Source: Streptomyces mobaraensis NBRC 13819 = DSM 40847
Lineage (GTDB): Bacteria; Actinomycetota; Actinomycetes; Streptomycetales; Streptomycetaceae
Assembly: GCF_017916255.1 (NCBI RefSeq)
Contig: NZ_CP072827.1
Coordinates: 6,597,501-6,661,500, forward strand
Direction of reading: 5' to 3'
DNA length: 64,000 nt
Below, piece by piece: positions 19,269 to 45,144 of this stretch. Numbering within the stretch: position 1 is the first letter of the stretch; the number at the start of each line of letters is the position of its first letter. The translations under genes and the position numbers were made by a program. A model generated the notes under the pieces. The model ran no database searches. It was not told where the DNA came from and saw only the letters and a program-made list of their open reading frames with translations.

Positions 19269-19379
19269 GGGGTCACCGTCCTCGCGGTCGGGGTGGGGTG
19301 GGGCACCCCACCCATGACGGCCGGCCCCGGCCGGCCCCCACGGGAGAGGGCCGGCCGGGGCCTCAGGCCAGGCGGCGCG

Positions 19380-19496: not shown

Positions 19497-19561
19497 GACG
19501 GTGTCCTTTCTCGGGGACTGTCGGTGCTGTGCTACGGCCCCGCCGAACGGCGGTGCCGGGT

Positions 19562-22201: not shown

Positions 22202-22320
22202 GCGTTCCCCCTCGGCCCCTCGGCTGCGATGCGTCGAGATTTCCACGCAGGGGGGAGCCGGACCAGTCACACGTGTCACCAATGGGCCGTGCGAAACGCA
22301 TGGTGGAGGATGTCATTCCA

Positions 22321-29603: not shown

Positions 29604-30062
29604 TCAGGCGCCGTCGCCCGCCGCGTTCCCGTCGGCGGGCAGGTTCTGTAAGGCGCACCGGGCCCGGGCGGCGGTGTCGAGGATGTCGCTCAGCATGCGC
29701 GACAGCTGGTCCACGCGCGCCGGCGGGGTTCCCGACGCGGGCCCGCCGCCCGCGAGTTCGCCGTTGACCTGCCGGAAGACCTGCTCGTCGAGGAAGTAGG
29801 CGGGCCGCGGGATGCCCAGGCTGTCGCTGACCTTGAGCAGCGTCTCCAGGGTGAGGTTGGAGCCGTCCGCCGACTCCGCCTGGGAGAGCGTCCGTTTGGA
29901 GACCCCGGCGCGTTCCGCCAGCCCGGCGAGGGTGAACGGGCCGTCGGGGTGGTGGTGGCGCACGTACCGCAGGCGCCGGGCGACGTCCGCCTTGGCGGCG
30001 GTGATCCGCGCCTCCAGGGACGGGCGTTCCCCGCCCCCCGCGGGCGCTCCCCCCTGCTGCAT
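29604..30062 (-). CDS. XRE-family transcriptional regulator
   Basis: 152 residues. HTH at residues 44-90: FTLAGLAERAGVSKRTLSQA followed by NLTLETLLKVSDSLGIPRPAYFLDE, as in SinR/Xre-like regulators often annotated as nodulation-type or antitoxin-like HTH proteins. The C-terminal 50 residues are helical (QLSRMLSDILDTAARARCALQ). Convergent with the SpoIIE phosphatase gene. The 30063-30290 region upstream contains a short GCAAT/ATTGC dyad (30221-30232) that could be its operator; this is weak. Confidence 0.85.
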   Translation of the reverse strand: MQQGGAPAGGGERPSLEARITAAKADVARRLRYVRHHHPDGPFTLAGLAERAGVSKRTLSQAESADGSNLTLETLLKVSDSLGIPRPAYFLDEQVFRQVNGELAGGGPASGTPPARVDQLSRMLSDILDTAARARCALQNLPADGNAAGDGA

Positions 30063-30290
30063 CGTCCACCCTCTCGCGCGCTCCGACCCGAGGACTCTAA
30101 CCGGCCGGGGAGCGGCTCAGCCATGGAAGTACCCCTAGGACAAAGCAGCGTTCTATGGGTGATTGCCGGATTTGTCGAGAGTGAGGACGGAGGGAAGACG
30201 GATATGGACCGACTTTGGGTGCAATACATTGCGACTTGGGGCAGCAAGTTGCCATGGCCGGATGCGGATGGCTAACGTCCGCGATGACAC
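30063..30290. promoter_or_regulatory. Lower-GC upstream region of the XRE gene
   Basis: About 230 bp of relatively AT-rich DNA with no supported gene. It carries the dyad GCAAT-AC-ATTGC at 30221-30232 and several TA-rich hexamers. Probable promoter of the XRE gene on the minus strand. Confidence 0.35.
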
Positions 30291-30341
30291 GGACGGCGAC
30301 CGCTCAAAGCCACGGGGGTGCTTTGAGGGCGGTCGCCGTCC
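30291..30341 (-). terminator. Strong hairpin terminator of the lyase-KS operon
   Basis: GACGGCGACCGCTCAAAGC (30292-30310) pairs with GCTTTGAG..CGGTCGCCGTC (30320-30340), with a two-base bulge and a 9-base loop. It lies 20 bp past the stop of the HpaB-like gene and probably ends the seven-gene operon. Confidence 0.8.
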
Positions 30342-30359
30342 GTTTCGTCCCGCAGCCGC

Positions 30360-31910
30360 TCACCCGTCCCCGTCCCGCAGGTACGGCACCGTCCACCCCT
30401 CGGCGTCGTACTCCGACAGGCACCGGTCCACGAAGCCGCACAGCTCGTCCCGGAGCCCGGTGCGTTCCGCGAACCGGAAGGTCTCGAAGCGGGTGACCTC
30501 CGGGTTGGCCGCGTGCAGGCTCTCGTAGAGCTCGTGCCGGCTCGCGAACTCGCTGCCCACGCCGTCCCACACCAGCTTCATCAGCTTGGCGCGCTCCTCG
30601 GCGCCGCCGCCGTCCGCGCCCCGCAGGTAGACGTCCAGGAACGGGCCGAGACCGGGCGCGCGGAAGTCGGAGGGATGGGACACGGTGCCGATGAGGGGCC
30701 CGGCGACCAGCCGCTGGATGAGCTGCCGGACCGTCCGGTACGCGGTCGGGGCCAGCACCCGGTAGGCGAGGCAGGGCGCCAGCGGAGGGTGCACACGGCC
30801 GCGCGCCCACGGCTCGGACCGCTCGGTCATGGCCGTCACCAGCGCGTGCACGGTGTGCCGCCACGCCAGCGCCTCGCCCACCCCCGACTGGACGCCCGGG
30901 TGGACGTCGCTGCCGTTGCTGCGCACGGCCTTCAGCAGCAGCCCGCACAGGAAGTCGAGCTTCACCGACATCCGGACGGCGCTGTGGAAGAGGAACCGCG
31001 GCAGGAACCCGCTCCCGTGGGCGAACGCCCCGGCCCGCTCCACGTCGCGGTGGATCAGCACGTTCGGCCACGGCACCACCGCGCGGTCGAAGACCAGCAG
31101 GGCGTCGTTCTCGTCGAACCGGCTGGACAGCGGATGGTCGAACGGGCTGTCCGACCGGCCGTCCCGGAGCTCGTACCCCGCCCGGCAGACGACCTTGAGC
31201 CCCGGGGTGTCCAGCGGCGCGACGAACGACACCGCCTGCGCCGGATCGTCCGGCCGCGGACCGGTGTGACTCACGAACGCGTACTGCGTCAGGGCCGCCC
31301 CCGTGGCGATCCCCTTCGCCCCGCTCACCACGATCCCGTCGGCCGTCTCCGCCACCACCCGGACGCGGATCCCCGCGCCGTCCTCCGCGTGCCGGCTCAC
31401 CGGCGGGTCGACGAGGGCGTGGCTCAGGAACAGCACCCGGTTCTGCGCCCGCGCGTACCAGGCCGAGGCGTTGGCCGCGAACGGGCCGTAGAAGCCCGGG
31501 TCGGCGCCCAGCGTGGCCATGAACGACGCCTTGTAGTCCGGCGTCCGGCCCATCCAGCCGTACGTCATCCGCTGCCACACCGCGATGGCGTCCCGCGCGG
31601 CCCGCAGGTCCGCCGTCCCGCGCGGCGCCCGGAAGAACGGGTGGGTGACCGTCCCGCCCGCGTCGCTGTCCGTGGTCAGCACCCCGCGCAGCGCCGGGTC
31701 GTGGAGGGCGTCGTAGAGCCGGGCGAGCGTCCGGGCGCTGTTGCGGAACGCCGGGTGGGCGGTGACGTCCGCGACGCGCTCGCCGTAGATCCACACCTCG
31801 CGGCCGTCCCGCAGGCTCTCCAGGTACTCGGCGCCGGTGGGCGGCCGTTCGGCGGCGCGACCGCCGTCCTGGCGCGGTGGGGCGGGGGAGCCGACGTGCT
31901 GGTCGCGCAT
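30360..31910 (-). CDS. 4-hydroxyphenylacetate 3-hydroxylase (HpaB/PvcC) family FAD monooxygenase
   Basis: 516 residues, normal length for the HpaB family. Landmarks: TGAEYLESLRDGREVWIYGE at the N-terminus, ADVTAHPAFRNSARTLARLYDAL, YGWMGRTPDYKASFMATLGA, VSGAKGIATGAALTQYAFV and FDRAVVPWPNVLIHRD. Family members ortho-hydroxylate phenols using FADH2 from a separate reductase. A flavin reductase gene is at 42519. Last gene of the operon, 97 bp after the SDR. In context it probably hydroxylates a tyrosine- or coumarate-derived ring, free or carrier-bound (inference). Confidence 0.9.
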   Translation of the reverse strand: MRDQHVGSPAPPRQDGGRAAERPPTGAEYLESLRDGREVWIYGERVADVTAHPAFRNSARTLARLYDALHDPALRGVLTTDSDAGGTVTHPFFRAPRGTADLRAARDAIAVWQRMTYGWMGRTPDYKASFMATLGADPGFYGPFAANASAWYARAQNRVLFLSHALVDPPVSRHAEDGAGIRVRVVAETADGIVVSGAKGIATGAALTQYAFVSHTGPRPDDPAQAVSFVAPLDTPGLKVVCRAGYELRDGRSDSPFDHPLSSRFDENDALLVFDRAVVPWPNVLIHRDVERAGAFAHGSGFLPRFLFHSAVRMSVKLDFLCGLLLKAVRSNGSDVHPGVQSGVGEALAWRHTVHALVTAMTERSEPWARGRVHPPLAPCLAYRVLAPTAYRTVRQLIQRLVAGPLIGTVSHPSDFRAPGLGPFLDVYLRGADGGGAEERAKLMKLVWDGVGSEFASRHELYESLHAANPEVTRFETFRFAERTGLRDELCGFVDRCLSEYDAEGWTVPYLRDGDG

Positions 31911-32006
31911 GGGCGGTGCCTCCTGCCGGTTGACTGCCGGTCGTTGTCGTTCCCGCGTCCCTACTCCGGCCCCGCTGCCCAGGGGGCCGCCGTCCCGCGC
32001 CGGGCC

Positions 32007-32777
32007 TCAGCCCGCCATCGCGCTGACGCCCCCGTCGACGACGACGTCCGCGCCGTTCACGTACGCCGCCGCGTCCGACGCGAGGAACGCCGCGAGCGCG
32101 GCCACCTCCTCGGGCCGGCCCACCCGCCCGGCCGGGATCCGCCGCAGCAGGCCGGGCACCCCGCCGTCCGGGTCGTCGATGTGCGGGGCCGTCGCACGGG
32201 TCCGGATCAGCCCGGGGCTGATGGAGTTGACCCGGATCCCGTGCGCCGCGCCCGCCCCGCACAGGTGCCGCGTCAGCGCGAGCACACCCCCCTTCGCCGC
32301 GCCGTGCGCCGCCTGCTCGACGAAGAGGGCGCCGCGCGAACCCGAGATCGACGCGATGTTGAGGACGACCCCGCCGCCCCGCGCGACCAGGTGCGGCCAG
32401 GCGGCCCGGGTGCACAGGTAGACGAGGTCGAGCTCGTTGCGGAGGGTGTGCTCCCAGTCGTCCGGGCCGAGCCGGTCGAACGGCGCGTTCCGCAGCGACG
32501 ACGCGTTGTTGCACAGGACGTCGAACGGACCGAAGGCGTCCACGGCGAAGCCGATCCACGCCTCGGCCCCCTCCCGCGTCGACAGGTCGACCGGCGCGAG
32601 CGACACCATCTCCCCGCCCGCCTCCCGCACCAGCCGGACCGTCTCGTCCGCCGTCCGGGGATCGCGCCCGCACCCGACGACGCGGGCGCCCTCCCGGGCG
32701 AACTCCACGGCCGCCGCCCGGCCGATCCCCGAACTGGTGCCGCTGATCAGAGCGGTCTTGTCGGCAAGCCGGCCCAT
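32007..32777 (-). CDS. SDR family oxidoreductase with Tyr-to-His active site
   Basis: 256 residues. Cofactor loop SGTSSGIG, CNNASS and the C-terminal VNGADVVVDGG are classical. The YxxxK motif reads HGAAK (His158, Lys162), so the catalytic Tyr is replaced by His; the Ser is in NIASISGSRGA. ATG 32777 overlaps the end of the styrene-monooxygenase-like gene by 31 bp. In this operon it could act as a ketoreductase on a carrier-bound intermediate or process an epoxide/diol; the altered residue leaves activity uncertain. Confidence 0.88.
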   Translation of the reverse strand: MGRLADKTALISGTSSGIGRAAAVEFAREGARVVGCGRDPRTADETVRLVREAGGEMVSLAPVDLSTREGAEAWIGFAVDAFGPFDVLCNNASSLRNAPFDRLGPDDWEHTLRNELDLVYLCTRAAWPHLVARGGGVVLNIASISGSRGALFVEQAAHGAAKGGVLALTRHLCGAGAAHGIRVNSISPGLIRTRATAPHIDDPDGGVPGLLRRIPAGRVGRPEEVAALAAFLASDAAAYVNGADVVVDGGVSAMAG

Positions 32778-34039
32778 GGCCGCGTCCTCCGTTCGCCCGA
32801 CACTCCGGAAGCCGGCGCCACGGACCGCCCGCGGACGCCGTCGAGGAAGGCGGCGGTCCGCTCGGGGGTGGCGATGCTGCGCCACATGGCCGGCGGATCG
32901 TCGAAGTTGGCGGCGAAGGCCGCGGCCACCGCCGGATCCGCGGCCGCCGCCCGGAACAGCTCCAGCAGCTGCGGGGTGGGCGGCCGGACGAACGCGGCGG
33001 TCCACTGCGCCACGCTCTCCGCGTACGGGCGCATCCGCTCCTCCGCGGCTCGGCAGAACGCCTCGTCGAACGGCGGCCCGGCGGCCACCGCCTCCGCGAA
33101 CTCCAGGGCGCAGTACGAGGCCAGGTTGGCGCCCTGCGCGGTGACGGGGTCGTTGACGCACCAGGCGTCCCCCAGCGCGAACGCCCAGGTGCCCTCGGCC
33201 AGCGCCCGCCACGCCCGGCGCACCACCGGCACCACCCCGCCCTGGACGAGGTCGCCCGGCCCGTTCAGCCGGAACTCCCGCTCGTCGATCCGCTCCCGCA
33301 GCCCGGGCACATGGCGGCGCAGCGCGCCGAGCACGGCGGCGTGGAAGCGGTCCGGGTCCCGGTCGTACGGGGTGCGGCAGACGGCTTCGAGCGGGCCGCC
33401 GGGGACGGCCTCCAGGCCGAGGACGTCGACCCGGCCGTCCGCGCACACGAACGGCATCCGCAGCACCTCGCCCACACCGGGCACGGCATGGAACTCGATG
33501 CTCCGGGGAACGTCCTCCGCGATGCCCCGGTACAGGCCCCCGCACAGCACCCGCTGCGGCGCGTCGAACGGGGAGCACCGGGGGTCCCGGGGGAACAGCT
33601 CGCCGGCCGCCCGGCCGCCCGCGACGACGACCAGGTCGTGGTCGTCGGCGAGGCCGCGGACGGTCCGCGCGGTCAGCTCGGTGACGACGTGCCGGCCGCC
33701 CCGCGCCACGTACTCCTCGACCAGCGCGGGCAGGTAGAGCCGGAAGTCGACCATGCTGTAGGCGGGGTGCGGGTCGGCGCGGAAGGACAGCGGCTCCGGG
33801 CCGTGGACGGTGACCGTCCGGGTCTCGGCCAGGGTGTCCGGCGCCGTCCAGAAGTCGACGCCCAGCAGGGCCTCGCGGCGGCGGGTGCTCCCCGAGCGCG
33901 CCACGAAGTTCAGCGCCCGGCCGCGCCGTACGTCCTCCGGCGACCGCGCCCCGAACAGCGTTGCCTCGACGCCCAGTTGACGCAGCCGCAGGGCGAGGTG
34001 GAGGCCGGCGACGCCGTCCCCGGCGATGGCGATCCTCAT
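32747..34039 (-). CDS. Styrene/indole monooxygenase (StyA)-like flavoprotein
   Basis: 430 residues. FAD-binding N-terminus MRIAIAGDGVAGLHLALRL. The whole protein follows StyA: ALNFVARSGSTRRREALLGV, MVDFRLYLPALVEEYVARGG, CSPFDAPQRVLCGGLYRGI, LNGPGDLVQGGVVPVVR, LGDAWCVNDPVTAQGANLAS and FAANFDDPPAMWRSIATPER. StyA-type enzymes epoxidise the vinyl group of styrene, or indole, with FADH2 from a reductase. Here it lies with an aromatic amino acid lyase that would make a cinnamoyl-type alkene, a fitting substrate class (inference). The start overlaps the ligase stop by 4 bp (ATGA). Confidence 0.88.
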   Translation of the reverse strand: MRIAIAGDGVAGLHLALRLRQLGVEATLFGARSPEDVRRGRALNFVARSGSTRRREALLGVDFWTAPDTLAETRTVTVHGPEPLSFRADPHPAYSMVDFRLYLPALVEEYVARGGRHVVTELTARTVRGLADDHDLVVVAGGRAAGELFPRDPRCSPFDAPQRVLCGGLYRGIAEDVPRSIEFHAVPGVGEVLRMPFVCADGRVDVLGLEAVPGGPLEAVCRTPYDRDPDRFHAAVLGALRRHVPGLRERIDEREFRLNGPGDLVQGGVVPVVRRAWRALAEGTWAFALGDAWCVNDPVTAQGANLASYCALEFAEAVAAGPPFDEAFCRAAEERMRPYAESVAQWTAAFVRPPTPQLLELFRAAAADPAVAAAFAANFDDPPAMWRSIATPERTAAFLDGVRGRSVAPASGVSGERRTRPWAGLPTRPL

Positions 34040-35160
34040 GGGCCCGCCACCCGTCGCACGGCCGGGCCCCGGAGCTTCCCGGTGGCGCCGCGGTCGATGC
34101 GGTCCACGATGGTGATCCGCCCGACGGTGACGCCGAGTTCGCGCAGCACCTCCGTGGTCCGCCGGGGGACCAGGCACGGCTCGCCGGGGGCGGCGACGAG
34201 CAGTTCGACGTGCTCGCCGCGGAGCGGGTCGGCGACGGGCACACAGGCCAGGTCGGCGCAGTCCAGGACGGCGCGCAGCCGCTCCTCCAGCACACCGAGG
34301 TCGATCCGGCGGCCGTTGACCTTGATCAGCCGGGAGCGGCGGCCCCGGAACCGGAAGGCGCGGTCGTCCAGCCGCCGGACGTGGTCGTCGGTGGTCCACC
34401 GGGGCAGCGGCCGGCCGTCCGGGCCCAGGGCGAGCCGGGGGCCCGCGACGGTGAGCCGGCCGGCGGGCCCGGGGGCGAAGCGGACGTCGTCCATCAGCGT
34501 CCAGGGCTCCGGCGCCCGCGCCCCCGGCGTCCGCAGCGACGGCCCGGTCCGCTGCCGGTGGGCGATGGCGCCGGTCTCCGTCGACCCGAACACCTCGACC
34601 AGCCGCACCCGTCCGGGGCCGGTCGCCGCCGCGAACTCCGCGGCCGTCGCCGGGAGCGTGGCGGTGCTGTGCAGGACGGTGACGTGCTCGCGCCGGCCCA
34701 GCACCGACGGGTCGCGGAGCAGGACGGGGAAGGCCCACGGGATGGCGACCACCAGCCACCGGCCCGCGTCGAGGGCGGGCGCCGGCAGCCCGTACCGGGG
34801 CCAGTAGCAGACCGGGACGCCGAGCGCGGCGGGCAGCAGCACGGTGGCGACCAGGCCGTACAGGTGCGTCGGGGGAGCGAAGGACAGCACCGCCCGGGGG
34901 CGGTCGGCGCGGACCAGCCCGGCCAGCAGGTGCGCCTCCGTCCACAGCTGCCACCTGCTGTGCCGCCAGCGGACGGCGGGGCCCGTGCTGCCGGAGGTGC
35001 ACACCTCGACGAGGTCCGGCACCACCTCCGCCACCAGCCTCGCCGCCGCCTCCGGCCCCAGCCCGTCCCAGCGGACGACCGACGGGCCCGGCGGCCGGTC
35101 CGGCGCGGCCAGCACCCCGCCGAGGAACTCGCGCGGCGACGGCTCCGGATACCCCTCCAT
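34036..35160 (-). CDS. Short AMP-dependent (ANL) acid ligase
   Basis: 374 residues, shorter than the usual 500+ of ANL ligases; the N-terminal part is reduced. Core motifs are present: EVCTSGSTGPAVRWRHS (P-loop), LVEVFGSTETGAIAHR (A5-like), WTTDDHVRRLD (A7), RSRLIKVNGRRIDLGVLEER (A8) and the catalytic Lys motif GATGKLRGPAV (A10). It starts at ATG 35160, one base into the KS stop (TGATG). It probably activates an aryl acid from the lyase and loads it on the ACP encoded two genes upstream (inference from context). Confidence 0.86.
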   Translation of the reverse strand: MEGYPEPSPREFLGGVLAAPDRPPGPSVVRWDGLGPEAAARLVAEVVPDLVEVCTSGSTGPAVRWRHSRWQLWTEAHLLAGLVRADRPRAVLSFAPPTHLYGLVATVLLPAALGVPVCYWPRYGLPAPALDAGRWLVVAIPWAFPVLLRDPSVLGRREHVTVLHSTATLPATAAEFAAATGPGRVRLVEVFGSTETGAIAHRQRTGPSLRTPGARAPEPWTLMDDVRFAPGPAGRLTVAGPRLALGPDGRPLPRWTTDDHVRRLDDRAFRFRGRRSRLIKVNGRRIDLGVLEERLRAVLDCADLACVPVADPLRGEHVELLVAAPGEPCLVPRRTTEVLRELGVTVGRITIVDRIDRGATGKLRGPAVRRVAGP

Positions 35161-37619
35161 CACCGCTCCCCACCGGCCGGGCCCACCACCGCGGCCGCGT
35201 AGGTGCCGCCCCACGCGGCGGCGGTCACCAGGGCGCGGCGCGGCCCGGCCGCCCGCTCGTCCGAGAGGAACGCGCGGGCGCCGGGCAGCGGATCGGGCGG
35301 CTCCGTCGCGTACGGCAGCCGGCCGCCGCCGCAGCCGTCGAGCGCGGCGACGAGGGACAGCAGCGGGCCGGCCGCCTGGCAGTGCCCGACCGCCCCCGCG
35401 AGGGCGGTCAGCCGGGTGCCGGCCGGCTTGAGACAGGAGGAGACGGCGGCGAGCTCGGCCTCGTCCAGGGCCGGTACGCCGTGGGCGCACCCGTAGACGT
35501 CCACGTCCTCCGTGCCCCGCGCGCGGGCCCGGTGCGGGCCGGGGCCGTGCAGGGCGAGGTCCAGCGCCCGGGACCAGGTCTCGGCGCACAGCGGCGCGCC
35601 GGACGCCCGTCCGGGACCCGAGGTCACCGCGTGCCCGAGCAGCGCGCCGAGCGCGTCCGCGCCCCGGGCCCGCGCGTGGCCGGCCGCCTCCAGCACCACG
35701 GCCGCCGCCGCCGGCGCGACCGGGCCCGGGGCCGGCGTCCGCGCGTACGGCCGGGACGGGCCGGGGCCGCGCAGCCCGTAGGCGCCGAACGCCCGCGCGA
35801 GCGTGCCGGTGACCTCGTCGGCCGCCACGACGACGACGGCGTCGGCCTGGCCCGCGCGGATCAGGTCGGCCGCGTGGCCCAGGGCGACCAGCCCCGAGGC
35901 GTCACCGGTGGAGACGGCCGAGAGCGGGCCGCCCAGGCCCAGTTCCAGGGTGGCGTAGCCGGCCGTCACGCTGGTGACGATGTTCGGCGCGTGCACGGCG
36001 CTGACGTACTCCGGTCCCTCCCGGCGGACGGTCTCGTTGAGCAGTTCCACGGTCCCGATCGGACCGGCGGCGGTCGCCACGACGACGCCGACCCGCGCGC
36101 CGTCCCGCAGCCCCGCCTCGTCCCAGGCCATGCGCGCGGCGGCCACCGTCAGCGCGCCCAGGGCGTCGACCCGCGACCGGTGGCCCGGGGCGAGGTGGCC
36201 GGCCAGGTCCTCCGGTACGAGGGGCGTGCCGCCCGGGGCGGGGCGGCGGAGGGCGGTGAGGAATGCGTGCCGCCCGAGCCCCAGCGGGGAGACGACCCCG
36301 GCGCCGGTGAACACGAGTTCCGTGCCGGGCGGTCGCGGGTTCTCGCCGCCGTCCCGGGACAGGACCAGCGAGCAGCAGGCGCCGCCGAACGCGATCGAGT
36401 TGGACAGGGCGACCCGGACGCCGGCCCGCCGGGCGGTGCGCGGGACGACGTCCCAGGCCGGTGTCGCGTCCGCGTTGGCGGTCGGAGGGAGGAGCCCGTC
36501 CCGCAGCGCCAGCGCGGTCAGCACCGCCTCGACGGCGCCGCAGGCCCCCAGCGTGTGCCCGACCTGCGGCTTGGAGCTGCTCATCGGCGGCGGGTGCGGT
36601 CCGGTGAACACCGCCCGCATGGCGCTGAGTTCGGCCGTGTCGTTGGCCGGCGTCCCGGTGCCGTGACCGTTGACGTAGCCGACCGCGTCCGGGCCCAGGC
36701 CCGCCCGGCCCAGCGCGCCGAGCATCGCGTTCCGCAGCCCGGCGCCGTCCGGCGGCGGCGCGGTGATGTGGTGGGCGTCGCTGGTCAGCCCGTAGCCGCG
36801 CAGCCAGGCGAGGACCGGCACCCCGCGCGCCCGGGCCGATCCCTCCGACTCCAGCACCAGGAACGCCACCGCCTCCCCGAGGCTCAGCCCGCCGCTGCGG
36901 GCGTAGGGCGCGCAGGGCGCGGAGTCGATCGACTTCCAGCTGGCGAACGTGGCGACGGTGGTGACGTTCAGCGCCTCGTACCCGCCCACCAGCATCACCG
37001 TGGCCCGCCCGGCGGCGACGGCGTCGTACGCGTACCCGACGGCGTTGGCGCCGGCGACACACCCGGTGGCGAAGACCGCCTTCGGCCCCCGGGCGCCCAC
37101 GGCCGCCCCGAGCTCGTCGGCCACGGTGTGCGCCGGGTGCGCGGCGGGGCCGGCGGCCGCCCGGTAGCGCTTCCAGAGCTCCTCGGAGCCGGCGTTGGTC
37201 CCGAGGGCGAGACCGATCTCGTACGGGTCGAGGGAGTCGGGGGCGAGCGCGGCGTGCCGCAGGGCGCCGAGGCCGGCCTGGCGGATGAGGAGGGCGGCGT
37301 CGGGGGGTCCGGCGGGGGCGGAAGGCTCGGTACGGCCTGTGGTCTCGGGGCTCTCGGCGCCCCCGGGCGGCGTGACGGCGCGGGCGCTCTCAGCGCTTGC
37401 CGCGCCCGGGGAGCCTGCCACCCCCTTGGCCCCCGGCCGCGACGACGCCGGGAGCCGGGCCGCCACCACGTCCGCCAGGTCCGAGCACCGCCCCAGAGCC
37501 GAGTCGCCGGCGCACACGGCCCGCCAGACCTCCTCCGTCCCGACGCCCAGCCCGGTGGCCAGGTACACCCCGGTGACGGCGACGCGCGGCGGCGCGGCGG
37601 GCCGTCGGTCGGGGCTCAC
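35160..37619 (-). CDS. Double beta-ketoacyl synthase: KS-alpha-like fused to CLF-like domain
   Basis: 819 residues from GTG 37619, overlapping the ACP stop by 4 bp (GTGA). Domain 1 (about 10-420) is a KAS II/KS-alpha-type ketosynthase with Cys187 in FATGCVAGANAVG, His in VNGHGTGTPANDTAE, Lys in SSKPQ and His in VGHTLGACG, plus an inserted Pro/Ser/Gly-rich loop at about residues 60-100. Domain 2 (about 425-815) has the same fold, but the Cys position is Asp573 (VSTGDASGLVALG) and the HGTGT motif is lost (VYGCAHGVPALDEAE); only the GH of AVGHCQAAG remains. That is the signature of a chain-length-factor-like partner. In type II PKS systems these are separate proteins, so the fusion is unusual. 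Confidence 0.9.
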   Translation of the reverse strand: MSPDRRPAAPPRVAVTGVYLATGLGVGTEEVWRAVCAGDSALGRCSDLADVVAARLPASSRPGAKGVAGSPGAASAESARAVTPPGGAESPETTGRTEPSAPAGPPDAALLIRQAGLGALRHAALAPDSLDPYEIGLALGTNAGSEELWKRYRAAAGPAAHPAHTVADELGAAVGARGPKAVFATGCVAGANAVGYAYDAVAAGRATVMLVGGYEALNVTTVATFASWKSIDSAPCAPYARSGGLSLGEAVAFLVLESEGSARARGVPVLAWLRGYGLTSDAHHITAPPPDGAGLRNAMLGALGRAGLGPDAVGYVNGHGTGTPANDTAELSAMRAVFTGPHPPPMSSSKPQVGHTLGACGAVEAVLTALALRDGLLPPTANADATPAWDVVPRTARRAGVRVALSNSIAFGGACCSLVLSRDGGENPRPPGTELVFTGAGVVSPLGLGRHAFLTALRRPAPGGTPLVPEDLAGHLAPGHRSRVDALGALTVAAARMAWDEAGLRDGARVGVVVATAAGPIGTVELLNETVRREGPEYVSAVHAPNIVTSVTAGYATLELGLGGPLSAVSTGDASGLVALGHAADLIRAGQADAVVVVAADEVTGTLARAFGAYGLRGPGPSRPYARTPAPGPVAPAAAAVVLEAAGHARARGADALGALLGHAVTSGPGRASGAPLCAETWSRALDLALHGPGPHRARARGTEDVDVYGCAHGVPALDEAELAAVSSCLKPAGTRLTALAGAVGHCQAAGPLLSLVAALDGCGGGRLPYATEPPDPLPGARAFLSDERAAGPRRALVTAAAWGGTYAAAVVGPAGGER

Positions 37620-37987
37620 GCGGCACCGCCCCCGGCCGCCCGCCGCGCCTCCGCCGGGGCGCGCGCGGCCGCGGGGTTCCCGGCGGGCCCGTCGGCGGGC
37701 TCCGTGACGAGGGCCACGATGGCGCGGATGGTCCGCAGCCGGTCCGGTTCGACGGGCCGGGGCGGGAGACCGAGGGCCCGCTCCACCCGTGTGAGGACTT
37801 CCAGTTGGGCCAGGCTGTCGTAGATCGCGTCCGGCAGTTCGTCCAGCGGGCGGTCGCGGGGCCACTCGGCCGCCGACGTGCCGAGGACCGCCCCGACGGT
37901 CGCGCGGACGACGGACTCGGCGGCGCGCGGTTCACTGACGCGCGGTGCGTCGGCGCGCGGGTCCGTGGCGTGCGGTTCACCGGACAT
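37616..37987 (-). CDS. Acyl carrier protein
   Basis: 123 residues; a single ACP-like domain in the middle (about 25-95) with the phosphopantetheine Ser58 in AIYDSLAQLEVLTRVERALG. The N-terminal 20 and C-terminal 30 residues are Ala/Pro/Arg-rich tails. ATG 37987 overlaps the lyase 3' end by 11 bp; the stop overlaps the double-KS start by 4 bp. It presumably carries the aryl-acyl chain between ligase, KS and tailoring enzymes. Confidence 0.88.
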   Translation of the reverse strand: MSGEPHATDPRADAPRVSEPRAAESVVRATVGAVLGTSAAEWPRDRPLDELPDAIYDSLAQLEVLTRVERALGLPPRPVEPDRLRTIRAIVALVTEPADGPAGNPAAARAPAEARRAAGGGAA

Positions 37988-39668
37988 GGGACCTCCCCTG
38001 CTGTGCGGGCAGCCCGTCGGCCGCCTCGGCGTCGGGTGCCGCGAGCGGCGCGGTGAGCCGCCCGGACCGGATCAGGCCGACGAGACCGGCCAGGTCGGTG
38101 TCGAGCCGCCGGTCCCGGTCGACGAACGGGACCACCGTCCGGACCAGGTCGCGGGCAGCCCGCGTGGCGGGGGCCATCCGGTCGCGGCCCCGCAGGTCCA
38201 CCGCCTGGCACAGCGCGGCCAGGGCGATCGCGGCGATGTTCTCGACCAGTTCGACGGTCCGCCGGGCGTCGCGGGCGGCGATGGAGGCCATGCTCACCTT
38301 GTCCTGGTTGTGGGACTCGGTCGAGCGGGAGAACGCCGTCGCCGGCGCGCTGTTCTTCAACGCCTCGGCGGCCAGGGAGGAGCAGGCGATCTGCGCGGCC
38401 TTGAAGCCGTGGTGGATGCCGGCGTCGGCGTCCGTGTCGTCCGTCGGGCGGACCAGGTTCGCGGTCAGGCCCTGGTTGCTCTTCTCGTCGACGACCAGCG
38501 CCACCTGCCGGTCCAGCAGGTCACCGAGGCTCGCCACGGCGAGCTTGAGGGCGTCCATCGCCTGCCCGACGTGGCCGCCGTAGAAGTTGCCACCGTGGTG
38601 GACCTCCCCGGCCACCGGGTCGAACAGGGGGTTGTCGTTGGTGGAGTTGATCTCGGTGTCGAGCCAGTCGGTGACCCAGTCCAGCGTGTCGTTGAGCACC
38701 CCGGTCACATGCGGCGCACAGCGCACGGAGTAGCGGTCCTGCAGCCCGGTGCGCAGCATCTGGTAACCGGCGCCGTCCAGCCGGGGGTTGGCGCCGACCC
38801 GCTCCTGATGCTCGACGGTCAGCTTGGAGCCCGCCAGCAGCCGGCGGATCCGCGCCGCGCTGGCCCGCTGCCCCGGATGCGGCTTCTGCGTGTGCAGGAA
38901 CGGTTCGAACGGGCCGCTGCTGGCCCGGACGGCCTCCGCCGTCAAGGCCGTGCACAGGTCCGCGACGACGGCCAGCTCGCGCGCCGCCCGGACGGCCGCG
39001 ACCGCGTAACCGCTCATGAACGACGTGCCGTTGATCAGCGCCAGCCCCTCCTTCGGCGCCAGCTCCACCGGCGTGAGACCGGCCCGGCGCAGCGCCGCGG
39101 CGGCGGACCGGGGCTCGCCCCGGTGCAGCACCCGGCCGTTGCCGGTCAGCATGTCGGCCAGGTACGCCAGCGGGACGAGGTCGCCGCTCGCGCCCACCGA
39201 ACCCCGCTCCGGGATCAGCGGCAGGATGTCCTCGCGCAGGCAGTCCGCCAGCAGCTCCACCAGCGCGACCCGCACCCCGGAGTAGCCGCGGGCCAGGCAG
39301 TTGGCCCGGATCAGCATGGTCGCCCGGGTCACGTCGGCCGGCGCCGGGTCGCCGCTCCCCGCCAAGTGGCCGGAGATGAGGTTGCGTTGCAGGGTGGCGG
39401 CCTTCGCCGGCCCGATGTGCCGCCCGCAGCTGTCGCCGAAGCCGGTGGTCACCCCGTACACGGGCTGCCCGGAGGCGACGAGCTTGTCCTTGACCCGCTG
39501 GGCGGCGGCCATCCGCGCCCCGGCGGCCGGGTCGAGCCGGATCTCCCGCCCCTCGGGGCGCCGCGCGAAGTCCGCGACGTCGTCGGAGCGCAGTGCGTCG
39601 GATCCCAATACCAGGGCCGCGCCGGTCGTTCCGGCCCGCGGCGGATTCTGTGTAGGTGTCAACGGCAT
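37977..39668 (-). CDS. MIO-type aromatic amino acid ammonia-lyase (or aminomutase)
   Basis: 563 residues. The MIO-forming Ala160-Ser161-Gly162 lies in GSVGASGDLVPLAYLADML; other family signatures are YGVTTGFGDSCG, EGLALINGTSFMSGYA, INSTNDNPLFDP and the late TESHNQDKVSM. Members are histidine, phenylalanine or tyrosine lyases, or aminomutases. The substrate-selectivity segment reads LQRNLISGHLAG, unlike the Ser-His of typical HAL or His-Leu of TAL, so the substrate cannot be assigned. In context (ligase, ACP, HpaB- and StyA-like enzymes) Phe or Tyr giving cinnamate or coumarate is most likely. First gene of the seven-gene operon. Confidence 0.9.
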   Translation of the reverse strand: MPLTPTQNPPRAGTTGAALVLGSDALRSDDVADFARRPEGREIRLDPAAGARMAAAQRVKDKLVASGQPVYGVTTGFGDSCGRHIGPAKAATLQRNLISGHLAGSGDPAPADVTRATMLIRANCLARGYSGVRVALVELLADCLREDILPLIPERGSVGASGDLVPLAYLADMLTGNGRVLHRGEPRSAAAALRRAGLTPVELAPKEGLALINGTSFMSGYAVAAVRAARELAVVADLCTALTAEAVRASSGPFEPFLHTQKPHPGQRASAARIRRLLAGSKLTVEHQERVGANPRLDGAGYQMLRTGLQDRYSVRCAPHVTGVLNDTLDWVTDWLDTEINSTNDNPLFDPVAGEVHHGGNFYGGHVGQAMDALKLAVASLGDLLDRQVALVVDEKSNQGLTANLVRPTDDTDADAGIHHGFKAAQIACSSLAAEALKNSAPATAFSRSTESHNQDKVSMASIAARDARRTVELVENIAAIALAALCQAVDLRGRDRMAPATRAARDLVRTVVPFVDRDRRLDTDLAGLVGLIRSGRLTAPLAAPDAEAADGLPAQQGRSHVR

Positions 39669-39961
39669 TACGGAGACCCCCTCGATCCTGGTTTCCCTCC
39701 GGATGGTAGGCGGATTTCACCGCCGCGGGTGAGGGGCCGGGAGGAAGGAGAACCCGAACGTGGCATCCGTAGGCCAATACGATGACGGATTCCCACCTGA
39801 ATTGCGGCGTCATTCGACCGGAATACCACGTCGCCCTGGGATAAATGACGCCGGAATTCATGGGATGAACCGCCGATCGCGCATCGGCCGACGCGGCTGC
39901 CGGCCACCGCGCGTACCGCCCCGCGGCCCGTATCGCCGAACGACGTGAAGGAGCACCGCAG
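39669..39961. promoter_or_regulatory. Divergent promoter region with long inverted repeat
   Basis: 293 bp between the lyase operon and the Tat-exported protein. GAATTGCGGCGTCATT (39799-39814) and AATGACGCCGGAATTC (39844-39859) are 16-bp inverted repeats with one mismatch, 29 bp apart. It is lower in GC than the flanks. A candidate operator or paired binding site controlling both directions; GAAGGAG at 39947 serves the plus-strand gene. Confidence 0.6.
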
Positions 39962-42007
39962 ATGCCACAGGATCTCCCCGCCCCCTCCGGGCTCCTCCGT
40001 CCCGCCCGGCGGCACGTCCTCGGTCTCGGCGCCGCCCTGGGCGGGGCCTTCGTCCTCCGCCGGGCCTCGGCCCCCGGGACCGGCCACCACCCGGACCCCC
40101 CGGCCGTCCTCACCGTGCGCACCGGCGATACCGTCACCCTCGCCCGCACCACCCGCCTCCGCCGCCTCACCGTCGAGCCCGACGGCGTCCTCACCGCCCC
40201 CGAGGGCGAGGACCTGACCCTCACCGTGGACGGGGTCGAGACCGGTACCGTGCCGACCGCCGACGGCCGGCTCCGGATCACCCCGGGGACCTACCGCGGC
40301 GACGTGGCCGTCACCGTGACCGAGCGGCACACCGTCCGCCACTACGACCTCGCCTTCCCCTTCCGGCAGGCCCTGTACGTCGGTGCCGACGGCCCGGACC
40401 CCGCCCGTTCGGTTCCCGCCGCGCGGCGCGGCGGCCGGACCGGCCGGTCGGCGGCCGAGGGCCTGACCGTCGTCTCCACCGGCGCGGTCTTCAACGGCGT
40501 CCACGTCGGCGGCGGTTCGTACCTCCTGCGCGCCCCGCGCGTCGACCTCACCGGCGACGGCCGCTGTGACTTCGTCGGCTACGGCGCCGCCCTCACGGCC
40601 ACCGGCCCCCGGACCCGCCTGGTGGTGGACGGAGCCCGGATCACCTGCCACGGCGTGATGCGCGCGGCGCTGGTCGCCACCGGCGGTGCCACGGTCGTCG
40701 TCCGGAACTCCCTGCTGCGCACGCGCGACGGCACGCTGCCGGACGGCTACCGGCCCACCGTCGACCCCCGCCACATGAGGGCCGCGCCCTGGCTGCTCGG
40801 CATCACCGGCAACGCTCGTACCACCAACCTCAGCGGCAGGGGCACCACCGTCGCCTACCTCGCCTCCACCCTCACCTCGGAGGGCTGGGGCGTCCTGTCC
40901 TCCGAGGGCGGCAGCGCCGGCGGCAGGATCGCGGCGGTCAACAGCCGGGTGACGACGGCCCGCAGCGGTTACGGCTCCTACGTCTGCGACGGCGTCACCC
41001 AGCACCTCCTGGGCTGCGACCTCGACGTCGCCGACTACGCCGCCGTCATCCGCGGCGGTTCCCTGCACTACGGTGACAGCACCCGGGCAGCGGTACGGAG
41101 ACTCGCCGCCGACTGGCGACTGGGCCTGACGGAGGCGGAACTGGTCGCGCTCACCCCGCGCGCCACCACCATCCGCTCCCGCCGCTTCGGCGTGATGTGG
41201 CACGGCCCCGGCCGCCTCCGCGTCGACGGCGGCACCGTGCTCGACACCGTCGGCCCGGTGCTCCTCGGCAAGGGGCAGCCCGCGCGGATCACCGTCGACG
41301 GCTCCCGCGGCGCGCGCCTGCGGTCCGCCGACGGCGTCCTGATGCAGCTCATGGACGACGACGACCCGGGCCCGCACAGCGCCGCCGACCCCCCGGAGAT
41401 CACCGGCCGTGTCTACCGCGACCCGCCCGGCCCACCTGTGCGCGCCGACGGGTTCGACACCACGGCCCCCCACCCCACCGACGTCACGGCCGAGTTCACC
41501 GACACCGACCTGACCGGCGACTTCCTCAACGGCACGCGCGGCGGCACCCGCCGGCTGCCCGGTCTCGACCTGCGCCTCACCCTCGTCCGTACCCGCCTCA
41601 CGGGCGTCGTCTCCGCCACCACCGCCCGGCACCGGATCGCCGCCGTCGACGCCTCCCGCCTCCGGGAGCTGGGTGTCGTCACCAACACGGCATCCCCGGT
41701 GGTCAACAACGGAGTGGTCCTCACCCTCGGACCGGGCAGCCGGTGGACCCCCACCGGCACCTGCCACCTGTCGGCCCTCCACCTGGACCCCACCGCCCGG
41801 CTGGCCGCTCCGCCCGGCACGAGACTGGAGGTCACCGTCGACGGCCGCGCGGTCGTCCCCGCGCCCGGCGGCGGGTGGACCGGCGCGGTCGCCGTCCGCG
41901 TCCGGCCGGCCGGGCCGCGCCCGGCACCGAGGACCGACGGCCCGGGACCGCCGGCCGGCGGCTCACGCCCGGCGCCGCACCCGCAGCGTCCCCCCGGCGC
42001 GCCATGA
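39962..42007 (+). CDS. Tat-exported beta-helix-like protein of unknown function
   Basis: 681 residues. The twin-arginine signal is ARRHVLGLGAALGGAFVLRR. The body is rich in short beta-strand repeats (VVSTGAVFNGVHVGGGSYLL, RLVVDGARITCHG, TVVVRNSLLRTRDG, VAYLASTLTSEGWGVLSSEG, VNSRVTTARSGYGSYVCDG) typical of right-handed parallel beta-helix folds seen in pectate-lyase-like and polysaccharide-acting proteins. No catalytic motif is recognised. Divergent from the lyase operon and sharing its promoter region; its 3' end overlaps the PPOX-like gene by 45 bp. It may act on, or hold, an extracellular product; that is speculation. Confidence 0.75.
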   Translation: MPQDLPAPSGLLRPARRHVLGLGAALGGAFVLRRASAPGTGHHPDPPAVLTVRTGDTVTLARTTRLRRLTVEPDGVLTAPEGEDLTLTVDGVETGTVPTADGRLRITPGTYRGDVAVTVTERHTVRHYDLAFPFRQALYVGADGPDPARSVPAARRGGRTGRSAAEGLTVVSTGAVFNGVHVGGGSYLLRAPRVDLTGDGRCDFVGYGAALTATGPRTRLVVDGARITCHGVMRAALVATGGATVVVRNSLLRTRDGTLPDGYRPTVDPRHMRAAPWLLGITGNARTTNLSGRGTTVAYLASTLTSEGWGVLSSEGGSAGGRIAAVNSRVTTARSGYGSYVCDGVTQHLLGCDLDVADYAAVIRGGSLHYGDSTRAAVRRLAADWRLGLTEAELVALTPRATTIRSRRFGVMWHGPGRLRVDGGTVLDTVGPVLLGKGQPARITVDGSRGARLRSADGVLMQLMDDDDPGPHSAADPPEITGRVYRDPPGPPVRADGFDTTAPHPTDVTAEFTDTDLTGDFLNGTRGGTRRLPGLDLRLTLVRTRLTGVVSATTARHRIAAVDASRLRELGVVTNTASPVVNNGVVLTLGPGSRWTPTGTCHLSALHLDPTARLAAPPGTRLEVTVDGRAVVPAPGGGWTGAVAVRVRPAGPRPAPRTDGPGPPAGGSRPAPHPQRPPGAP

Positions 42008-42505
42008 CCGCACGACGGCCCCCCGCTCGGTGGCGCGCACCGTGGCCGCCTCGGCGATGTCGAGGCGCAGCAGCTCCGGGCCGGGACCGGGCGGGAGGGT
42101 CGCGCGGTCCCGCAGTACCTTCAGGAAGCCGGCCGCGGCGGCCCGATCGGTGACGGCCACCGCCCGCCCGCTGATCTTGGCGTCGTCCGCCGCCATCCTC
42201 GCTGTTCCGGCTATTCCGGTCGCGCCGGCCGTCCCGGCCGGGTTGTGCCGGCCGCACCGGCGCTCGCTGGTGGCGCTGTGCAGGGCGCAGCGCGGATCGT
42301 GGCGCAGATCGGCGGACTTGACCGAGCCCGGCATGACGAAGAGCCAGAGGTCCGAGGCGTGGAAGACCGGCTCCACGCCGCTGATCCGGGGCGCGCCGTC
42401 GCGCCGCAGGGTGGCGAGCAGAGCGTGCCGGTCGGCTTCGAAGGCCGCCCTCACGGACGCCGCGAACGCCGGTTCGGCGGCGGTGAAGGCATCCCACGTG
42501 ACCAT
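41963..42505 (-). CDS. Pyridoxamine 5'-phosphate oxidase-fold (PPOX) flavoprotein
   Basis: 180 residues from ATG 42505. The split-barrel pattern is visible: FEADRHALLATLRRDGAPRI, VEPVFHASDLWLFVMPGSVK and SADLRHDPRCALHS, as in FMN- or F420-binding PPOX proteins. The middle has an Ala/Gly/Thr-rich insert (GTAGATGIAGTARMA). It starts 13 bp after the flavin reductase gene and is probably cotranscribed with it. Function may be redox or cofactor binding. Confidence 0.82.
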   Translation of the reverse strand: MVTWDAFTAAEPAFAASVRAAFEADRHALLATLRRDGAPRISGVEPVFHASDLWLFVMPGSVKSADLRHDPRCALHSATSERRCGRHNPAGTAGATGIAGTARMAADDAKISGRAVAVTDRAAAAGFLKVLRDRATLPPGPGPELLRLDIAEAATVRATERGAVVRSWRAGGTLRVRRRA

Positions 42506-42518
42506 CAGCCCACTCCCC

Positions 42519-43088
42519 TCACGTGCGGGACGGCCCGGTCCGCGCGGCCCCGCCCGGCGCCGGCACCTCGTCGGCCGGAGCACCGCCGATCCGGTGGAAC
42601 CGGCCCAGGTAGCTGAGCAGCGGACGCGCCGACGGCTTCACCCTGCACGCGGTCACCCATCCGATCGTGAGCAGGTGGTCGCCGTTCGGCACCTGGCCCT
42701 CGGTACGGCACTCGAACACGCAGGCCGCGTCCGCCAGGATCGGATGGCCCCCGTTCGGCGCGGGGTGCCAGCCGATCCCGTGGAACTCGTCGCCCGCGCC
42801 GAAGCGTTCGGACGAGGCGAACCAGCGGGCGACCGGCGCCTGGTGCTCCTGGAGCAGGTTGACGACGAACCCGCCCGAGTCGGCGATCGCGCCGGAGAGC
42901 CGGCTGCCCCGGCGCAGGCACACGGAGAGCAGCTCGGGGTCCATGGAAACGGAGGTGACCGATCCGGCGGTCATCCCGGCCGGCCCGGCCCGGGTGAGGA
43001 CCGTCAGCACCGCGACGGCCGTCGGCAGGTGGCGCATCGCCGCCCGGAAGTCCCGCTCCGCCAGTCCGGTACCCGCCGTGTGTTCCAT
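42519..43088 (-). CDS. Flavin reductase family protein
   Basis: 189 residues. Typical split-barrel flavin reductase: FRAAMRHLPTAVAVLTVLTR, GMTAGSVTSVSMDPELLSVC, FVVNLLQEHQAPVARWFA and GDHLLTIGWVTACRV. This is the HpaC/StyB class that supplies FADH2 to two-component monooxygenases. The only reductase of this class in the window, it is the natural partner for both the HpaB-like and StyA-like enzymes encoded 3-12 kb away (inference). Divergent from an MFS gene. Confidence 0.88.
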   Translation of the reverse strand: MEHTAGTGLAERDFRAAMRHLPTAVAVLTVLTRAGPAGMTAGSVTSVSMDPELLSVCLRRGSRLSGAIADSGGFVVNLLQEHQAPVARWFASSERFGAGDEFHGIGWHPAPNGGHPILADAACVFECRTEGQVPNGDHLLTIGWVTACRVKPSARPLLSYLGRFHRIGGAPADEVPAPGGAARTGPSRT

Positions 43089-43515
43089 CGGTCCGTCCTC
43101 ACTCCGGCCCGCGCGGGTGGGATCCCGGGCGGGCGGGTCGACAAGGCGACCAGCACACCTCGACCATACGCCAGGACGTTACGACGATTATCGCCGTCGT
43201 GGGGAATCCCTTCCAACGAGGTATAGGGAACCGGAAGTCGGTCGGACGATCCGTTTATGGGCTGTGCGGACCATGGGATTTGGGGTGACTTCACCCGCTC
43301 GGAACGGCGGCTCGTTTACGCTGGAAAGCGCGGCGATTTCCCCGCGCCGATGTCCGTTCCGCGCGTTCTTTTCACCTTCCGAGCCGGCTTTCTGTCGGAT
43401 CGTCGGTCCCTTCGGATGGCCGACCCGCAGGACGACGAAAAGCGTCCGGCCCCTGCTTCCAGCCGGACGTCCGGTCCGCGCACACCCGCCCCCGCCCCCG
43501 GGAGGGACCACCGCC
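43089..43515. promoter_or_regulatory. Divergent promoter region, flavin reductase / MFS
   Basis: 427 bp without a gene. A dyad ACGACG-N8-CGTCGT lies at 43181-43200 with a TTATC core, about 95 bp upstream of the reductase start. GTATAGGG near 43221 resembles a -10 element for the plus strand. No other structure stands out. Confidence 0.4.
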
Positions 43516-44985
43516 ATGCCGCCCCCGCACCGCACCGCCCCCGCGCCGCGCCGCCGCTGGTGGATCCTGGGCGTCCTCAGCACGGCCCAGGTGCTGGTGG
43601 TGCTCGACGGCACCGTCATGAACATCGCGCTGCCCTCGGCCCAGGCCGACCTCGGCTTCTCCGACGACGGCCGGCAGTGGATCGTCACCGCCTACGCGCT
43701 CGCCTTCGGCAGCCTCCTGCTGCTCGGCGGCCGGATCGCCGACCTGTTCGGACGGCGGACCGCCTTCCTCGCCGGGCTGGCCGGATTCGCCGGTACCTCC
43801 GCCCTCGCGGGCGTGGCCGACGGCTTCGGCGTCCTCGTCGCGGCCCGCGCCGGGCAGGGCCTCTCCAGCGCCCTGCTGGCCCCCGCCGCCCTCTCGCTCG
43901 TCGGCATCACCTTCACCGAGCCGGGGGAGCGCGCGACGGCGTTCGGCGTCTGGGGCGCGGCGGCCGGCGCGGGCGGCGCGGTGGGCATGCCGCTCGGCGG
44001 CGTCCTCACGCAGTACCTGGGCTGGCGCTGGGCCATGTACGCCAACACCGTCGTCGCCGGCCTGGCGCTGGCCGCCGGGGCGCTGCTCCTCGCCCGGGAC
44101 CGGCACCCCCGCGCCTCCCGGCTCGACGTCCCCGGCACCCTGCTCGTCGGAACCGGCCTGTTCTGCCTGGTCTACGGCTTCGCCGCGGCCGGGAGCCACC
44201 CGTGGTCCGCCGTCGCCACCTGGGGGTTCCTCGCCGCCGCCGGCGTCCTGCTCACGGCCTTCGCCGGGTGGCAGACTCGGGCGCCGCACCCGCTGCTGCC
44301 GCCACGCGTCGTCCTGGACCGCGACCGGGCCGCCTCCCTGATCGCCCTCCTCCAGACCAGCTCGGCGGTCTTCGGCGTCTTCCTCTTCGGCACCTACTAC
44401 CTCCAGCGCTCCCTGGGGTACGGCCCGGCCGCGACCGGGCTCGCCTACCTCCCGATGATCGCCGCGCTCATCGCGACGTCGCCGCTGGCCACCCGGGTCC
44501 TCCTGCCGCGCCTCGGGCCCCGGACGGTGATCGCGGCCGGCGCGGCACTCGCCGCCTCCGGCCTCCTCCTGCTGGGCTCCCTGGGCCTCGACAGCCCGTA
44601 CCCGTCCGCCGTCCTCCCGGCGCTGGTCCTCACCGGCGCGGGGCTGGGGACGATCATCACGGCCACCACCAGCCTCGCCACCCTCGGGGTGGCGCCGGCC
44701 GACTCCGGGGTGGCCTCGGCGACCGTCAACGCCATGCAGTACGTGGGCGGTTCGGTCGGCGTCGCCCTGCTCACCACCGTCTCCACGGCCACCGCCGCCG
44801 CCCGCCTCGCCGGGCGCGCCGGCCCGGACGCGGCCGCCCGCGCCCAGGCCGACCTCGCCGGCTACCACGCCGCCTTCCGCTGCCTGGCCGCCGCCTTCGC
44901 CGTCTGCCTCCTCGTCGCCGTCCCGCTCTACCGCCGCTCACCGACGGCCCGCCGCACGGACGCGGCGCCGGAACGGGCGGGCTGA
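43516..44985 (+). CDS. MFS exporter, DHA2/EmrB-type (14 TMS)
   Basis: 489 residues with about 14 hydrophobic segments. DHA2 hallmarks: VVLDGTVMNIALPSAQADLG in TM1, WIVTAYALAFGSLLLLGGRI, motif A GRIADLFGRRT, and AGAGGAVGMPLGGVLTQYLG (motif C region). ATG 43516 follows GGAGGG. Such proton antiporters often provide self-resistance or product export beside biosynthetic clusters; it lies at the edge of the lyase-KS cluster and may export its product. Confidence 0.9.
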   Translation: MPPPHRTAPAPRRRWWILGVLSTAQVLVVLDGTVMNIALPSAQADLGFSDDGRQWIVTAYALAFGSLLLLGGRIADLFGRRTAFLAGLAGFAGTSALAGVADGFGVLVAARAGQGLSSALLAPAALSLVGITFTEPGERATAFGVWGAAAGAGGAVGMPLGGVLTQYLGWRWAMYANTVVAGLALAAGALLLARDRHPRASRLDVPGTLLVGTGLFCLVYGFAAAGSHPWSAVATWGFLAAAGVLLTAFAGWQTRAPHPLLPPRVVLDRDRAASLIALLQTSSAVFGVFLFGTYYLQRSLGYGPAATGLAYLPMIAALIATSPLATRVLLPRLGPRTVIAAGAALAASGLLLLGSLGLDSPYPSAVLPALVLTGAGLGTIITATTSLATLGVAPADSGVASATVNAMQYVGGSVGVALLTTVSTATAAARLAGRAGPDAAARAQADLAGYHAAFRCLAAAFAVCLLVAVPLYRRSPTARRTDAAPERAG

Positions 44986-45144
44986 CCGACGGCGTCGCTC
45001 CCGTCGCGGTCGAGGCGGACGTCGGCTTCGGGCACCTCTAGCGCTTCTTTCCGACTGCCGCGGGACGGAGGCTGACGGCGGCAGCCGGCTCGGGCCGGCG
45101 GCGGGCGCATGGTGCACCGGGCCCGCCGGTGCGGCCGCCCGTGG

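Follow-up and report, generated by a model that had tools for sequence, protein, structure and literature searches.

What might a streptomycete make with seven closely packed genes that begin with an aromatic ammonia-lyase, end with a phenol hydroxylase and have between them a ketosynthase (KS) joined to a chain length factor (CLF) in a single protein? The question is raised by the minus strand, 39668-30360, of a 64,000-nucleotide stretch of Streptomyces mobaraensis NBRC 13819 (positions 6,597,501 to 6,661,500 of NZ_CP072827.1; 'the window' below), whose genome is one 7.57-Mb contig. The answer we favour, to which we would give an even chance, is a pathway in which a coumaroyl or caffeoyl group on an acyl carrier protein (ACP) undergoes very few C2 elongations and then oxidation by flavin enzymes. 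The initial annotation of this DNA had followed a related logic of lyase, ligase, KS and oxidation, and that logic stands in part: the protein families and the association of ligase with lyase speak for it, and deviations in the short-chain dehydrogenase/reductase (SDR) and in the lyase pocket had been missed. As type II polyketide synthase (PKS)-like machinery with an aryl starter the system is of a known kind; its gene combination and its clade are new among the open-licence papers searched.

A conserved and rare operon

The seven open reading frames are all intact, without internal stops. From the lyase gene to the SDR gene successive junctions overlap by 11, 4, 1, 4 and 31 nt, and a 96-nt gap then precedes hpaB, so that five of the six junctions are overlaps. 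Beyond the 3' end of hpaB a terminator-like hairpin is predicted (30289..30343, minus strand), the folding of 30275-30350 giving -45.5 kcal/mol and a z of -4.83, with none of 200 shuffles equally good; the consensus terminator scan, which requires a run of T, does not list it. Both the operon and its strong terminator, as originally proposed, are borne out.

The seven genes and three neighbours, ten in all, recur in identical order in four other Streptomyces genomes, those of S. eurocidicus (L004), of Streptomyces sp. I05A-00742 (L005, the same as L116) and of loci L117 and L118, and it is this recurrence that argues against chance assembly. Further KS-CLF orthologs, among the best 120 of 370 matches, are named from S. 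mobaraensis, S. griseocarneus and a Kitasatospora. The search of public genomes for the gene order, suggested with the initial annotation, gave relatives, and no characterised cluster with the same set: literature searches of open-licence papers found no description of one. Among 391 genomes drawn from the order, the ligase family has matches in 19 and the full set is present in 4, the window's own included.

Could the locus simply be decayed, or perform some housekeeping role without a dedicated product? No regulator was recognised within the operon and one ligase ortholog has lost a key lysine, but the frames are intact, the order is conserved in five genomes, the full set is rare within the order, and in four comparisons all seven genes, as well as the neighbouring reductase gene, have a dN (0.09-0.19) lower than their dS (0.33-0.60). 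Judged by these substitution rates the operon is under purifying selection, and decay is hardly credible.

Lyase, carrier protein and ligase

The first gene (37977..39668) encodes an ammonia-lyase of the 4-methylideneimidazole-5-one (MIO) type (PF00221, 549.9 bits), probably a tyrosine ammonia-lyase of the bagremycin/ferroverdin group, with the MIO triad ASG within GASGDL from residue 160 on. Its best NCBIfam model is the bagremycin/ferroverdin one, NF041222 (673.6 bits, below the cut-off of 1000). Against the HutH model TIGR01225 it scores 447.2 bits, short of the cut-off of 539.15, and the genome has a separate HutH (L001) that scores 689.6 bits. At the pocket pair, window-type orthologs have Gly-His (H101), lyases of L119, L015, L130, L132, L134 and L152 have Tyr-His, and the HutH has Ser-His. 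The pocket histidine aligns with that of a tyrosine aminomutase of known structure (PDB), and tyrosine is our best guess, from sequence, for the substrate; 3,4-dihydroxyphenylalanine (DOPA) or another ring may be the alternative. That the lyase would furnish an aryl acid, as first proposed, agrees with its MIO family, and what had been overlooked was the departure of its pocket from that of BagA-type lyases.

Kinship with the bagremycin (bag) and ferroverdin (fev) lyases does not extend to the pathway as a whole. A table in PMC6692506 lists the lyase of those pathways as fevV, equivalent to bagA (the name of NF041222 is BagA/FevW instead), and the products there are p-vinylphenol esters of acids of the 3,4-aminohydroxybenzoic acid (3,4-AHBA) type, no PKS being named in the available portion of that paper.

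Next comes an ACP of 123 aa (37616..37987), borderline for PF00550 (19.0 bits, E 0.0017, just below the cut-off of 20.8). The DSL motif is there in all nine ACPs compared (the window, L004, L116, L117, L118, L014, L015, L016 and L119). Two genes further on is a short adenylate-forming acyl or aryl ligase of 374 aa (34036..35160) with the motifs TSGSTG, FGSTETG and TGK, which passes for AMP-binding (35.3 bits, cut-off 29.9) and falls far below the cut-off of the 4-coumarate ligase model TIGR02372 (60.4 versus 334.7 bits). It is 48% identical to Sam7, a 'putative caffeoyl CoA-ligase' and the sole relative named for an aromatic substrate among the best 120 of 254 ligase matches.

The company that the ligase keeps ties it to a lyase-made aryl acid more firmly than its family score does. 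MIO lyase, ACP and short ligase occur together at all nine loci examined of the KS-CLF clade discussed below, five of window type and four (L014, L015, L016 and L119) with a truncated KS-CLF. More widely, three draws, of 295, 391 and 394 genomes, gave 32 that bear the ligase; with the lyase sought in the stretch fetched, an MIO lyase lies near the ligase in 27 of these, the window's own counted and one call (G267) resting on a 3.5-kb stretch. Window genes for which no such association was expected were seen at the 31 other ligase loci once (SpoIIE), never (MFS2) and once (XRE), with the common SDR family at 17.

As an observation apart, loci L126, L130 and L134 have clusters of ligase, ACP and MIO lyase genes together with an AMP-ligase gene, and in L126 and L134 genes resembling that for 3-deoxy-D-arabino-heptulosonate 7-phosphate synthase were noticed by eye; these clusters are perhaps related to bagremycin-type pathways.

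The fused KS-CLF and what it may do

Between ACP and ligase, a gene with a GTG start (35160..37619) encodes 819 aa in which a KS (about 1-421) is followed by a CLF-like half (about 425-819), with ketoacyl-synt N and C matches, one protein in place of the separate subunits of type II PKSs. The KS half keeps C187, H319 and H355, and Cys-His-His is invariant in 25 aligned rows. At the corresponding places the CLF half has D573, C711 and H746, the aspartate being kept in the window protein and in P0001-P0009; by this alignment the CLF half is without an active cysteine. Is the fusion singular? It is not. The nine closest relatives are likewise fused (748-819 aa), and the best 120 of 370 matches show fused KS-CLFs to be widespread, with lengths of about 740-850 aa and for the most part 40-44% identity, by which uniqueness is ruled out. 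In plasmid records no match spanned 80% of the KS-CLF. The same genome has a second fused KS-CLF (L085, C1:6002095-6006756), 32% identical over residues 12-812.

Trees of either half unite in one clade, with 100/100 support, the 10 rows of the window group, 8 rows (6 distinct) of a truncated group of 511-526 aa, and P0036, an unnamed protein on a long branch. At the active cysteine the window and truncated groups have TGC, in contrast to the TAC or NAC of most other rows. In the truncated proteins (L014, L015, L016 and L119, the last at 7637-9211 of its locus) a retained KS is followed by no more than the first half of the CLF. Their loci have genes for an MIO lyase, a ligase, an ACP and an FAD-type oxidase or monooxygenase.

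It is here that comparison with cispentacin (amc) becomes pertinent. There, according to the part of PMC10698177 drawn on here, a KS, AmcF, and a short partner, the 'cyclization factor' (CYF) AmcG, extend 2-oxoglutaryl-ACP once and then cyclize it; FabD and FabI are presumed to be borrowed from fatty acid synthesis. The window shares with it a ligase, an ACP and a KS whose partner has no functional motifs, and a fused KS-CLF that performs one C2 elongation and ring closure on the ACP could turn an aryl-propenoyl starter into an aryl-substituted small ring. The truncated clade members, with KS and first CLF half, lend this some appeal: the L119 protein resembles an AmcF-AmcG fusion, matching AmcF at 177.5 bits and AmcG weakly (35.2 bits, E 8.6e-9, below the cut-off of 80). 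The window protein itself is of another build. Its CLF half (395 aa) is full length, and at E<=5 AmcG matches neither it nor the corresponding part of L014 and L015 (nor, among the best 25 of 27 families, P0067); its KS scores less with AmcF (194.7 bits, cut-off 325) than with fabF (306.5 bits). By these matches it does not count as a KS-CYF protein. The amc partner is moreover a separate short protein, and the carbonyl at which the ring closes is present in the 2-oxoglutarate starter and not in coumaroyl. We regard a cispentacin-like course as unlikely. The words 'ammonia-lyase', 'styrene' and 'coumar' are absent from the main text of PMC10698177.

A second possibility looks to reduction: an iterative, highly reducing type II PKS whose product would be an acid of the aryl polyene type, the dehydratase being borrowed from fatty acid synthesis. 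In its favour, fused KS-CLFs of some 40% identity adjoin reducing genes. By eye, ketoreductase and ACP genes are beside them in L006, L007, L009 and L011; all of these except L006 also have a FabZ-like gene, and L009 and L011 one for an acyltransferase. On the annotated Priestia plasmid L003 the reducing set is complete. Further, a dehydratase from fatty acid synthesis is proposed for the p-coumaric acid (cma) cluster (PMC10777205, in the portion consulted). The highly reducing PKSs of that paper, cma and the avenalumic acid (ava) one, use a 3,4-AHBA starter that an acyl-ACP ligase loads on the ACP; the authors tie the number of elongations, one in cma and two in ava, to the CLF, and for cma the thioesterase is unknown. 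The window resembles these in aryl-ACP loading by a ligase and in having KS and CLF. It differs from their two ACPs, separate KS and CLF and diazotisation genes, and the gene table of the same portion is without ammonia-lyase, StyA and HpaB. In the window no dehydratase turned up in the proteins scanned from 30360 to 46518, the operon's only SDR has HxxxK, and an oxidative StyA would destroy a polyene. We find this course, too, distinctly improbable.

Apart from that argument, the set of ketoreductase, ACP, FabZ and glycine-cleavage-T-like genes seen in L007, L009, L011 and L003 is common to actinomycetes and a Priestia megaterium plasmid. Flexirubin/aryl polyene and enterocin pathways also share in part an ammonia-lyase, a ligase and KS/CLF. 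The window departs from these too: the FlxA model gives 322.5 bits against a cut-off of 700, no dehydratase is seen, and StyA and a flavin reductase are extra.

A third possibility dispenses with elongation, the KS-CLF passing the ACP-bound coumaroyl or caffeoyl group on to an alcohol or amine to give an ester or amide. In saccharomicin (sam) biosynthesis by Saccharothrix espanaensis, tyrosine ammonia-lyase Sam8, 4-coumarate 3-hydroxylase Sam5 and ligase Sam7 are encoded in one cluster and yield a caffeoyl amide (PMC3469384, from the section available), and the TGC at the active cysteine of the KS clade, in place of the usual TAC or NAC, would suit altered chemistry of this sort. However, the Cys-His-His of a decarboxylating KS is complete and no acceptor-making genes were recognised in the operon. 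The saccharomicin product is a caffeoyl-taurine glycoside, for whose aglycon the same section names no KS-CLF or StyA gene. Acyl transfer alone we find distinctly improbable.

The SDR and the flavin monooxygenases

The SDR (32007..32777; adh_short, and adh_short_C2 at 179.9 bits) was correctly placed in its family by the initial annotation, which overlooked that the catalytic YxxxK is HxxxK. His158 stands at the place of the tyrosine, with Lys162, Ser143 and the NNA motif retained. L004, L116, L117, L118, L119 and L016 have the same histidine. Among 85 aligned SDR matches with the lysine (7 without it dropped, the window SDR excluded, a few perhaps counted twice from overlapping loci) 79 have Tyr and 6 have His, and all six are from these clusters. 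Exclusivity was nevertheless ruled out when 3 of 15 further matches had His (L175, L178, L179); these adjoin homologs of the 39962-42007 gene considered below, without these PKS genes. On the alignments, the variant is uncommon, retained and not confined to this PKS type. With HxxxK replacing YxxxK, plain ketoreduction is doubtful.

Just upstream of the SDR gene is that for a StyA-type two-component FAD monooxygenase (32747..34039), 48% identical to S. vilmorinianum StyA. It has the StyA fold, the FAD motif GxGxxG and a Smoa_sbd match of 93 bits, and gives 352.8 bits with the StyA equivalog NF045732 (cut-off 550). What distinguishes it from StyA/StyB systems is its situation in a carrier-protein operon. 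The last gene (30360..31910) encodes an HpaB-type phenol ortho-hydroxylase (HpaB_N 287.0 and HpaB 164.9 bits; 548.3 bits with equivalog TIGR02310, cut-off 885.2).

A proposed pathway and its weak points

How might these parts work together in the coumaroyl/caffeoyl-ACP pathway that we favour? We envisage a dedicated pathway, type II PKS-like and primed with a phenylpropanoid, in which the lyase would convert tyrosine to p-coumarate, which the short ligase, to go by its family and neighbourhood, would adenylate and load on the ACP. With its active residues in place, the KS half would condense the aryl-ACP once or a very few times with malonyl-ACP, the malonyl being supplied via FabD of fatty acid synthesis, while the CLF half, lacking the active cysteine, would shape the pocket. 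From their families, the HpaB-type enzyme would turn phenol to catechol and the StyA-type enzyme would oxidise the alkene conjugated to the aryl ring, both drawing FADH2 from the neighbouring flavin reductase. The SDR, without its catalytic tyrosine, would perform a non-standard step on the C2-extended chain. More speculatively, a lactone or other ring may form through a hydroxyl or epoxide and so free the product from the ACP, by which the absence of a thioesterase would be explained. An exporter of the major facilitator superfamily (MFS) would then take the product out, and a small catechol-bearing aryl-C5 compound is to be expected. An aryl-ACP starter and one or two elongations tied to the CLF have their precedent in ava and cma, and the likeness of the ligase to Sam7, whose cluster also encodes Sam8 and Sam5, speaks for this pathway too.

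The absence of acyltransferase, dehydratase and thioesterase genes had been taken at the outset to imply partners from fatty acid synthesis or an unusual release, and for this there is precedent in cma and partly in cispentacin, on the portions of those papers cited above. By analogy the operon fits their style of few elongations with borrowed fatty acid synthesis components. Since its starter genes, fusion and tailoring differ, it is outside the cma/ava and cispentacin types. A bolder and tentative thought, possible and no better, is that it represents an undescribed type II PKS branch in which a fused or CLF-shortened KS-CLF adds one C2 to MIO-lyase-made phenylpropanoyl-ACP, and the HxxxK SDR and flavin monooxygenases close a small, oxygenated, self-releasing ring.

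Several points weigh against the coumaroyl/caffeoyl-ACP pathway. The Gly-His lyase pocket is unlike the Tyr-His of BagA-like relatives, so the substrate may not be tyrosine, and the L014 and L016 lyases are only 36-37% identical to that of the window. Five of the 32 ligase loci have no MIO lyase (G259, G371, G529, G537 and G436, the last on a short contig). The A10 lysine of the ligase, kept in the window, L004, L117 and L118, is Glu in L116. None of the lyase, ligase, StyA and HpaB proteins reaches the cut-off of the NCBIfam model by which it would be named. Finally, the tree program flags the meeting of long branches, that of the window group included, and the placement is therefore possibly less sure than its support suggests.

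Neighbouring genes

The cluster was at first drawn too narrowly, the flavin reductase, MFS and 39962-42007 genes having been omitted. The reductase (42519..43088, minus strand; Flavin_Reduct, 127.9 bits) is the probable supplier of FADH2 for StyA and HpaB. It is below the cut-offs of all the NCBIfam models concerned (HsaB 93.6, FerA 87.4, HpaC_Thermus 82.4 and StyB 78.4 bits) and adjoins the cluster in L004, L116, L117 and L118 too. On the plus strand is the gene for a predicted DHA2-like MFS exporter (43516..44985; MFS_1 157.3 bits, efflux_EmrB 188.5 versus a cut-off of 230.2), with homologs 78-81% identical beside the cluster in the same four loci.

The third neighbour, divergently transcribed (39962..42007, plus strand), encodes a protein with, by eye, a Tat-like signal. 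Pfam and NCBIfam scans gave it no match, its AlphaFold model (pLDDT, the predicted local distance difference test, 40) is unusable, and a parallel beta-helix label assigned by eye is unsupported. It is 62% identical in L004 and 69% in L005 and also adjoins the cluster in L117 and L118. That it is specific to the cluster is ruled out: the family is present in 24 of the 391 genomes of the order, four of them with the cluster, and in the 12 fetched of the other 20 the cluster PKS genes were not found. Some homologs sit, by eye, among catabolic genes. An XRE regulator gene at 29604-30062 is present at only one (L116) of the four other full-cluster loci and for that reason is left out of the cluster.

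Elsewhere in the window, 14759-22282 has by eye the look of a ram/amf (SapB) morphogen locus, in which a LanKC-like protein (19562-22282) is accompanied by two genes for ABC transporters and one that resembles a response regulator gene.

Perspective

What we have, then, is a rare and conserved cluster family with a new combination of starter and partner, from which a catechol-type product is expected, and of which the conserved histidine in place of the SDR catalytic tyrosine is a further feature. Its half-length CLF relatives bear on how the CLF is related to the recently named cyclization factor. If the undescribed branch entertained above is real, its truncated members would show how a CLF that loses its second half gives rise to a CYF.

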